Shown one piece after another: positions 17,293 to 18,733 of a DNA stretch of 33,291 nucleotides. How positions within the stretch are numbered: position 1 is the stretch's first letter; each line of letters opens with the position of its first letter. Under the pieces are notes generated by a model, which worked only from the letters and a program-made list of their open reading frames with translations, ran no database searches and was not told the origin of the DNA. The translations under genes were made by a program, and so were the position numbers. The stretch spans positions 1 to 33,291 of the forward strand of contig JAGOTT010000012.1 of the NCBI GenBank assembly GCA_018061645.1, written 5' to 3'. The DNA comes from Candidatus Moraniibacteriota bacterium. Lineage in GTDB: Bacteria > Patescibacteriota > Minisyncoccia > Moranbacterales > UBA1568.

Positions 17293-17364
17293 GCCACCTT
17301 AGCTCAGTGGTAGAGCAGCGGTTTTGTAAACCGTTGGTCCTCGGTTCAAATCCGAGAGGTGGCT
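17293..17364 (+). tRNA. tRNA-Thr (UGU)
   Basis: The acceptor stem GCCACCT/AGGTGGC is perfect, the discriminator is T and no CCA is encoded. The anticodon loop TTTGTAA sits between GCGGT and ACCGT, giving anticodon TGT. The T loop is TTCAAAT. A TATACT box at 17271-17276, overlapping the end of the preceding gene, is a likely -10. Confidence 0.97.
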
Positions 17365-17399
17365 CATTGTCGGATTGAGGGAATTGGACATACAGGAGA

Positions 17400-17454: not shown

Positions 17455-18063
17455 ATGTCGAAAAAGAAAACGCTCCGAAGCGAAGAACTCTCCGCAAAAA
17501 AGCTGTATCTGGGCGGATCGAGCGGATCGGAGATTTCTGCTCAGCTCGGGATTTCCCTGAAACAGGTATACGATTCATTGCGGCGACAGGAAATTCCAAG
17601 AAGAAGTTCTCGGGAGCAGAATCGAATTCGCTTCGAAAAGAAACCGCTCACGTTCACAATAAAAGAAGGGTTGTCGCGCAAAGAAAGGGATTTGCTTATT
17701 TCCGGCCTGATGCTCTATTATGGCGAGGGGGCAAAAACCGGTTCTACTGTTGATTTCGCGAATTCAGATCCGAGACTCCTCGGAGTATTCCTGAGGTTTC
17801 TGGTGACGATTTGCGGTATCGATACGAAAAAGCTCCGGTTTTATCTCTACTGTTTTTCCGATCAGGATAGTGACGCGTTGATACGTTTCTGGTGCTCTTA
17901 TTTGGGTGTAGATCGGCGGCAATTCACGAGGCCGTATGTTCGATCGACGCTCAACAAGGGTAAACGGACGATGGAAAACGGAGTTTTGCATATCCGTTAC
18001 AGCGACAAGCGTCTGATTGAAAGGATATTGTCACTCGGACGCGAGCTGATGAGTACCTTGTAA
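17455..18063 (+). CDS. HTH plus LAGLIDADG-like protein, possible homing endonuclease, 202 aa
   Basis: Residues 10-45 look like a resolvase-type helix-turn-helix (KKLYLGGSSGSEISAQLG, then a second helix). The rest begins LLISGLMLYYGEGAKT, a divergent form of the LAGLIDADG helix with an acidic residue before the last Gly. FANSDPRLLGVFLRFL, YLYCFSDQD and VLHIRYSDKRLIERIL follow, in the alpha-beta order of a single-motif LAGLIDADG domain. Such proteins cut DNA at homing sites or act as regulators. It ends 5 nt before a tRNA-Tyr gene that carries an ORF-less group I intron, so it may be that intron's mobility enzyme. I am fairly sure of the domain resemblance and unsure of activity. Confidence 0.7.
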   Translation: MSKKKTLRSEELSAKKLYLGGSSGSEISAQLGISLKQVYDSLRRQEIPRRSSREQNRIRFEKKPLTFTIKEGLSRKERDLLISGLMLYYGEGAKTGSTVDFANSDPRLLGVFLRFLVTICGIDTKKLRFYLYCFSDQDSDALIRFWCSYLGVDRRQFTRPYVRSTLNKGKRTMENGVLHIRYSDKRLIERILSLGRELMSTL

Positions 18064-18068
18064 AATTC

Positions 18069-18380
18069 GGGTAGGTAGCAGAGCGGTCAAATGCATCAGA
18101 CTGTAAGATACTATTGCAGCTCCAGGAGGGGACTCCTGGATGAACTTTCTGGGATAACGGTGGAGGCTACGTTTTTTCTGTCATTCCCACTTATGCGGGA
18201 ATCAAGAGAAAATATGCGAATACCGTGGGAACCCCGACATTCGGTCGGGGAGCGCCGTAGAGACTAGATACCAGAACACCTAGAACAGGTGAAGATATAG
18301 TCCATGCCGGGGAGAAATTTCCGGGTTACGTGAAATCTGACGCCCTACGGGCTACGGGGGTTCGAATCCCTCCCTACCCA
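18069..18380 (+). tRNA. tRNA-Tyr (GUA), split by a group I intron
   Basis: The acceptor stem GGGTAGG (18069-18075) pairs with CCTACCC (18373-18379); discriminator A, no CCA encoded. The anticodon stem TCAGA (18096-18100) pairs with TCTGA (18336-18340). Joining 18104 to 18333 restores the loop CTGTAAA with anticodon GTA, between bases 35 and 36 of the tRNA. A long variable arm and a TTCGAAT T loop follow, as expected for bacterial tRNA-Tyr. Without removal of the insert the anticodon does not exist. Confidence 0.93.
18105..18332 (+). ncRNA. group I self-splicing intron, 228 nt, no ORF
   Basis: The 5' exon ends in U and pairs with the internal guide GCAG (18116-18119). This makes a 6-bp P1 with the required U-G at the cut site. 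P2 is CCAGGAG/CTCCTGG. The catalytic core shows the R-like GAGACTAGATACC and the S-like AAGATATAGTCC, with P7 as GACTA/TAGTC and P8 as CACCT/AGGTG. The intron ends in the terminal G (18332). A peripheral arm holds a GTCATTCCC...GGGAAT hairpin similar to the genomic repeat at 19641. No endonuclease is encoded inside. Confidence 0.92.
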
Positions 18381-18384
18381 CACA

Positions 18385-18479
18385 GCCGCCTCGCGGCAAT
18401 GACCAATGATCAAAATCCAATGACCAATGAAGGTTTGGAAATTGGAGCTTGATGATTGGTGATTGCTTGCGCGGCAAGC
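18385..18479. repeat. hairpin-CCAAT palindrome-hairpin element, spacer copy
   Basis: GCCGC/GCGGC hairpin (18385-18397), then words of the type AATGACCAATGATCAAAAT with inverted counterparts (GATGATTGGTGATT), then GCTTGC/GCAAGC hairpin (18465-18479). The last 2 bases overlap the tRNA-Thr 5' end. The same three-part layout is found inside the 16S gene at 32922-33019. Confidence 0.8.
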
Positions 18480-18550
18480 CGTTGTAGCTCAGTCGGTAGA
18501 GCACGTCATTGGTAATGACGAGGTCATCGGTTCAATCCCGATCAACGGCT
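18478..18550 (+). tRNA. tRNA-Thr (GGU)
   Basis: Acceptor GCCGTTG/CAACGGC, discriminator T, no encoded CCA. The anticodon loop TTGGTAA between CGTCA and TGACG gives GGT. The T loop is TTCAATC. It pairs with the UGU species upstream to cover Thr codons. Its last bases are duplicated 181 nt downstream. Confidence 0.97.
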
Positions 18551-18733
18551 CAAGGGAAATCCCGAAAATTCGGCAGTGACGCGGGTTCGATGGGTGCGTT
18601 CTTCTCCGGACTGAGGGATTGAACGGGAAGGGGTCGGGAAACGGAAGTTTCCCGTTCGGGGTGACAGCGAAGCGTCAGAGGGCGGAAGAGCCCTATGAAG
18701 AGCGGAGCAAGTGAAGTCCCGATCAACGGCTCA
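18536..18733. mobile_element. possible tRNA-targeted insertion remnant between 17-bp repeats
   Basis: The 17 bp covering the tRNA-Thr 3' end (TCCCGATCAACGGCTCA, 18536-18552) recur exactly at 18717-18733. The 164 nt between them are GC-rich and structured: CGGGAAAC/GTTTCCCG (18635-18654), a competing GAACGGGAA/TTCCCGTTC pairing (18621-18657) and AGGGC/GCCCT (18679-18694). Exact duplication of a tRNA 3' end is the mark left by tRNA-targeted integration. No integrase is present, so this could also be a duplicated tRNA fragment or a small structured RNA. Confidence 0.5.

Follow-up and report, generated by a model that had tools for sequence, protein, structure and literature searches.

A group I intron splitting the anticodon of tRNA-Tyr in a Patescibacteria genome, and the candidate homing endonuclease gene beside it

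The group I introns described from bacterial tRNA genes, in the tRNA-Leu(UAA) and tRNA-fMet of cyanobacteria, the tRNA-Ile of Azoarcus and the tRNA-Ile2 of Burkholderia and Acidovorax, are compact, lie in the anticodon loop and have a U.G pair at the splice site and a conserved core (PMC3984707, PMC8450103). The intron described here, from a Candidatus Moraniibacteriota bacterium, is like them in all of these features as well as in its tRNA host, and differs from them in that the host is tRNA-Tyr, the split falls after U35 and a nuclease-like gene lies outside the tRNA. Some tRNAs of CPR bacteria have been noted to carry group I introns that are hard to detect (Lui et al, 2021; PMC8172020), in an account that does not go into isotype, position or any nuclease partner. 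A search of the literature found no description of an intron in a bacterial tRNA-Tyr.

Two further systems are close. In collaborative homing, as defined in PMC6083498 and PMC3984707 and known from phages, a counterpart to the present locus is F-CphI, which lies beside the intron-containing psbA gene of cyanophage S-PM2. There, too, an ORF-less group I intron is accompanied by a freestanding nuclease gene adjoining the host gene (PMC6083498, PMC3984707). The same arrangement, with a candidate nuclease, is found here, although in a cell rather than a phage, at a tRNA gene, with a helix-turn-helix (HTH) and LAGLIDADG-like protein in place of the Endo VII motif, and with the pair known from its sequence. 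The rRNA insertion sequences of CPR bacteria, with LAGLIDADG endonucleases such as I-ShaI, combine group I introns and LAGLIDADG homing enzymes within the same phylum (PMC11270868). In those elements the gene is inside the rRNA intron, whereas here it is outside, before the tRNA, and is missed by the Pfam LAGLIDADG models.

The interrupted tRNA-Tyr gene

The tRNA-Tyr(GUA) gene lies on the forward strand of the window, the whole stretch of 33,291 nucleotides that was analysed, with tRNA-Thr(UGU) upstream (17293–17365) and tRNA-Thr(GGU) downstream (18478–18551), both on the same strand and located by tRNA scan. The Thr-Tyr order is retained in most relatives that have neither the gene nor the intron described below, and in some relatives the downstream tRNA-Thr(GGU) is itself interrupted by an intron. 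The tRNA-Tyr is split between anticodon bases 35 and 36 by a 228-nt group I intron without an open reading frame, at 18105–18332, as a sequence-only reading of this DNA had proposed. The 5′ exon (18069–18104) ends in CAGACTGT, the last base being U35, and the 3′ exon (18333–18380) runs from AAATCTG, which begins with A36, to A73, the CCA not being encoded. The exact borders come from ARAGORN, which with introns allowed reports tRNA-Tyr (gta) i(37,228), and the intron is further defined by a match to the Rfam model RF00028 and by covariation among 13 homologues. The joined exons form a class II tRNA that ARAGORN reads as tRNA-Tyr(GUA), and the spliced sequence folds as such. The gene was missed both by ARAGORN in its default mode, run without the intron option, and by the Rfam tRNA model. 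At 18395–18470, between the tRNA-Tyr and tRNA-Thr(GGU), CAATGACCAATGA-like units recur in both inverted and direct orientation and could form a long hairpin; weak Rfam matches near this interval, to microRNA families and others, were dismissed as chance.

The genome, of 1.0 Mb in 26 contigs, is rated 100% complete. A search with RF00005 gave 44 tRNAs genome-wide, and ARAGORN, then run on those regions, found no other tRNA-Tyr, so that the single copy is usable only after splicing. An uninterrupted tRNA-Asn was likewise not found by ARAGORN in the 44 regions; the only tRNA-Asn found in the genome contains a 547-nt group I intron, which in turn holds an HNH protein gene (G000:C11:5354-5595, minus strand; L001, precursor 1453–2074). 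With the sole tRNA-Tyr and the sole tRNA-Asn found both interrupted, neither tRNA can do without splicing. The genome has a third group I match, in an apparent 23S rRNA (G000:C26:9968-10486, L002).

The match to the group I model RF00028 (Intron_gpI) covers 18095–18324 and scores 34.6 bits, with an E-value of 3.5e-7 in the search of 531 nt and 1.6e-7 in that of the whole genome. A covariance search had been suggested as a check on the intron; it returned a low E-value at a score under the Rfam gathering score of 50. Homologues of the intron within the family score 32.7–56.4 bits, one of them above the cut-off. The structure was examined over 13 tRNA-Tyr precursors from several lineages, all interrupted by the intron at exactly this position, onto which P1–P9 were drawn with the P3/P7 pseudoknot. 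Over these precursors 96.3% of cells are paired, and 38 pairs have changed on both sides, compared with 21.2 in shuffles and 11–16 when the partners were slid. All helices gain support from the comparison except P4 and P7, which are invariant, and P2, P3, P8 and P9 covary.

P1 consists of 6 bp (18101–18106 with 18114–18119) and places U18104 in the U.G pair at the 5′ splice site, which is kept in 13 of 13. It is followed by the P2 hairpin (18121–18140) with its GGGA loop, where all 8 pairs show double-sided changes. P3 (18147–18152 with 18271–18276), pseudoknotted with P7, is 100% paired with double-sided changes in three of its six pairs. P4 (18157–18161/18222–18226), also 100% paired, encloses P5 (18166–18169/18213–18217; 88.5% paired), while P6 and the P6a hairpin, placed by the comparison of the 13 precursors, occupy 18227–18256. 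P7, GACTA/TAGTC (18262–18266 with 18298–18302), is the same in all 13 and encloses the second strand of P3 together with P8 (18277–18281/18287–18291), in which three of five pairs have changed doubly. The P9 hairpin (18307–18324), with a GAAA loop, has double-sided changes in six of seven pairs. The R and S segments are conserved among the homologues, as is the terminal omega-G (G18332), which is invariant in all 13, and the fold of the 312-nt precursor has z = −3.8 against shuffles. The 6-bp P1 with its U-G, the P7 strands and the R and S segments pointed out in the sequence-only reading are thus all present and conserved. Introns of tRNA genes of this make are usually classed as IC3. Short of biochemistry, these features of the sequence make it certain that the present element is a group I intron.

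Empty sites are found among close relatives. Across a survey of 28 genomes of the family, the intron is present in six and an intronless tRNA-Tyr was located in 21; in the remaining one, G082, the tRNA-Tyr was not located. Two genomes of the same genus, G070 and G071, have an intact, intronless tRNA-Tyr with neither the intron nor the adjacent gene, and in G066–G069, of another genus, the intronless tRNA-Tyr is identical to the joined exons at 84 of 84 bases. The joined exons are identical over 84 nt to the tRNA-Tyr of genus g3 and only 82–90% identical to that of the two same-genus genomes. Whether the 100% identity proves exon co-conversion was weighed, but it is not taken as proof here, the signals from the neighbouring tRNAs being mixed. 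In G070 the 3′ end of the tRNA-Tyr is repeated as a short copy about 110 nt past the intact gene, on its downstream side (L111, ~1675–1695), possibly an insertion scar. More widely, at least six lineages of Patescibacteria have an intron at the same tRNA-Tyr site, with hits in Moranbacteria, Yanofskybacteria (2), Magasanikbacteria (2), Peregrinibacteria, Peribacteria and one labelled only Parcubacteria, so that the earlier suggestion that a Tyr host is unusual fails within the phylum. A search of viral contigs with an intron-core pattern gave no match.

The adjacent gene and its family

Immediately upstream, on the same strand, is a gene overlooked by the sequence-only reading, at 17455–18063, whose stop codon lies 5 nt before the tRNA-Tyr. 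It encodes a protein of 202 amino acids. In the alignment of its family an HTH at the N-terminus is followed by a C-terminal domain that has the motifs LYxGEGxK and NSDP. Searches of Pfam and NCBIfam recognised only the HTH; there was no match to a LAGLIDADG model and the C-terminal domain falls outside every curated family. The family profile can be aligned weakly (E about 2e-3 to 4e-3) with I-DmoI at its second LAGLIDADG motif, with E91 at the acidic position, and the alignment, at E about 2e-3, takes in the strand and helix that follow the motif. The family differs from I-DmoI in having one motif per chain and an added N-terminal HTH. An acidic residue is kept at the LAGLIDADG catalytic position in at least 90% of the family. 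The AlphaFold model of the protein is of high confidence, with a pLDDT of 94.9, and a Foldseek search with it against the PDB gave no match below E 1e-3. LAGLIDADG matches in a viral library of phage proteins are weak (E 6e-3 to 4e-2), and the protein on its own gave no match in viral contigs. On these results the product is called LAGLIDADG-like and not a proven member of that group; from its sequence it is probably a freestanding homing endonuclease. A paralogue in the same genome ends 9 nt before tRNA-Gln(UUG) (G000:C3:37784-38443; L247, L262).

Members of this HTH and LAGLIDADG-like family were found in 46 of 131 genomes of the order and in 101 of 380 drawn across Patescibacteria. Among 129 loci, which are the best-scoring matches rather than a random sample and include some genes fetched twice, the gene ends between −40 and +20 nt relative to a tRNA start on the same strand in 112, abutting the 5′ end of the tRNA; by chance this would be expected at about one locus in 700, a rough figure that assumes about 45 tRNAs per Mb and one strand. 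The end is at exactly −10 in 25 loci, where the TAG stop codon is the tRNA's own U8-A9-G10. At L149, L151, L156, L240, L228 and others the reading frame runs through the acceptor strand of the tRNA to stop on this TAG. Direct partial tRNA copies were sought upstream of all 112 of these genes and no general duplication scar was found. No description of the family was found in the literature, in a search that was weak on subscription journals.

The genes are linked to particular isoacceptors. In a family tree of 127 rows, 118 of them different, in which the row for locus L144 is its Trp-linked gene and not the Tyr-linked one, clades sort by tRNA isoacceptor and not by host, with 35 label changes against 98.4 when labels were shuffled (none of 200 shuffles was as low), and the 14 Trp-linked proteins form one clade. 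In other relatives the same slot before an intronless tRNA-Tyr is taken by GIY-YIG and PD-(D/E)XK nuclease genes, an indication that homing is directed at this position. At L115 (1116–1506), and also at L114, L116 and L121, a GIY-YIG gene enters the 5′ end of the intronless tRNA-Tyr and stops inside its acceptor strand, and at L115 a truncated copy of the same tRNA-Tyr, resembling an insertion scar, lies upstream of the gene. At L351, in G100, the gene abutting the intronless tRNA-Tyr is a PDDEXK_5 (PF11645) endonuclease gene.

Gene and intron as a possible mobile pair

Gene and intron co-occur in part. The gene lies 2–5 nt from the tRNA-Tyr in four of the six intron-bearing genomes of the family, and within the 28 genomes it abuts the tRNA-Tyr in none of those where an intronless copy was located. 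Of the two intron genomes without an abutting gene, G077 has the gene 134 nt upstream of the tRNA-Tyr, abutting tRNA-Thr(UGU), and G074 retains a broken relative of it elsewhere. Over the 131 genomes of the order, 4 of the 10 in which the gene abuts the tRNA-Tyr also have the intron, as do 2 of the other 121 (Fisher p 2.5e-4, with phylogeny ignored, all six intron genomes coming from one family and intron absence resting on an Rfam search). The gene tree and the intron tree have the same branching for the four Tyr gene-intron pairs and place this genome with another genus, which fits joint horizontal transfer. In families f7, f9 and f5 the gene-bearing genomes have tRNA-Tyr alleles that are mutually nearest (85–94%), and nearer to one another than to the gene-less tRNA-Tyr of their own family, where this was sampled.

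It would seem rather likely from these observations that a self-splicing intron and a freestanding, tRNA-specific homing endonuclease here make up a collaborative homing pair, with intron and enzyme probably spreading together. Of the two parts of such a mobile unit, the intron would be the RNA one and should leave the precursor by guanosine-initiated self-splicing, because otherwise the cell would be without a tyrosine tRNA. The gene at 17455–18063 would be the DNA part, its product presumably cutting intronless tRNA-Tyr genes near the anticodon, so that repair from the donor might copy gene, exons and intron together, while the intron would protect the donor from its own enzyme. An altered target was predicted for intronless tRNAs that have the gene beside them: none of the eight gene-bearing intronless tRNA-Tyr genes keeps the target CAGACTGTAAATCTG, compared with 16 of 20 in their own family and 6 of 20 in matched families, and as the difference from the matched families is not significant this prediction was dropped as evidence. 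An arm of the 31U-39A type, noticed after the fact, is present in five of these eight tRNAs and in 0 of the 46 gene-less ones in the same comparisons.

A rather unlikely alternative is that the intron is an ordinary one, by now kept by vertical descent, and that the gene, for a freestanding nuclease homing to tRNA 5′ ends by itself, has no tie to the intron, the two meeting because both favour tRNA genes. Each does exist without the other, as the gene abuts an intronless tRNA-Tyr in eight genomes and the intron has no gene abutting its tRNA in about 8 of 13, and the tRNAs that the family adjoins mostly lack introns (Gly, Trp, Met, Ala, Gln, Lys and Arg). Chance meeting accounts poorly, however, for the co-occurrence at Tyr, its p value uncorrected for phylogeny, and for the congruence of the two trees. 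Introns are also present at all Thr(GGU) loci read by ARAGORN and throughout the Phe clade, which includes one Ile(GAU), with Asn partly and Tyr in 4 of 11.

It is improbable that the adjacent protein is no nuclease, acting instead as an RNA-binding splicing helper (maturase) or as a DNA-binding regulator of the tRNA operon. LAGLIDADG proteins can act as maturases (PMC11270868), the protein has an N-terminal HTH, and members of the family are tightly linked to one tRNA type. Against such a role, many members stand beside intronless tRNAs, their distribution is patchy and horizontal, an acidic residue is preserved at the LAGLIDADG catalytic position, and unrelated nuclease families occupy the same slot.

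The sequence-only reading had also suggested that splicing controls the tRNA-Tyr. This holds in so far as splicing is needed for the use of the only tRNA-Tyr found, the one point that favours a regulatory intron through which the cell would set tyrosine decoding by the rate of splicing; control in that sense is very improbable, as the intron is patchy in its presence and keeps the company of mobile elements, the tRNA-Tyr of the closest relatives is intronless and no regulatory element was seen. It is scarcely credible that the intron is a dead insertion that stays unspliced, with another, functional tRNA-Tyr located elsewhere or missed through gaps in the draft of 26 contigs, given core helices and splice-site bases that are all conserved, exons that form a perfect tRNA and the absence of another tRNA-Tyr from the 44 tRNA hits, the genome being rated 100% complete.

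Returning to collaborative homing, a broader form of the proposal is possible and is put forward tentatively. The family may be a phylum-wide guild of freestanding, isoacceptor-specific homing endonucleases lodged at tRNA 5′ ends, often with the stop codon on U8-A9-G10, for which ORF-less group I introns would have been recruited as self-protection at Tyr, Thr, Phe and Asn, amounting to collaborative homing in cells.

By itself the intron adds a new host gene to a well-known ribozyme. Standard annotation misses both halves of the locus, the tRNA being unseen by default scans and the nuclease-like domain lying outside Pfam and NCBIfam. The pairing of gene and intron, if true, would extend collaborative homing from phages to cellular tRNA genes, and would account for the continued spread of ORF-less introns through the essential, single-copy tRNAs of reduced genomes.
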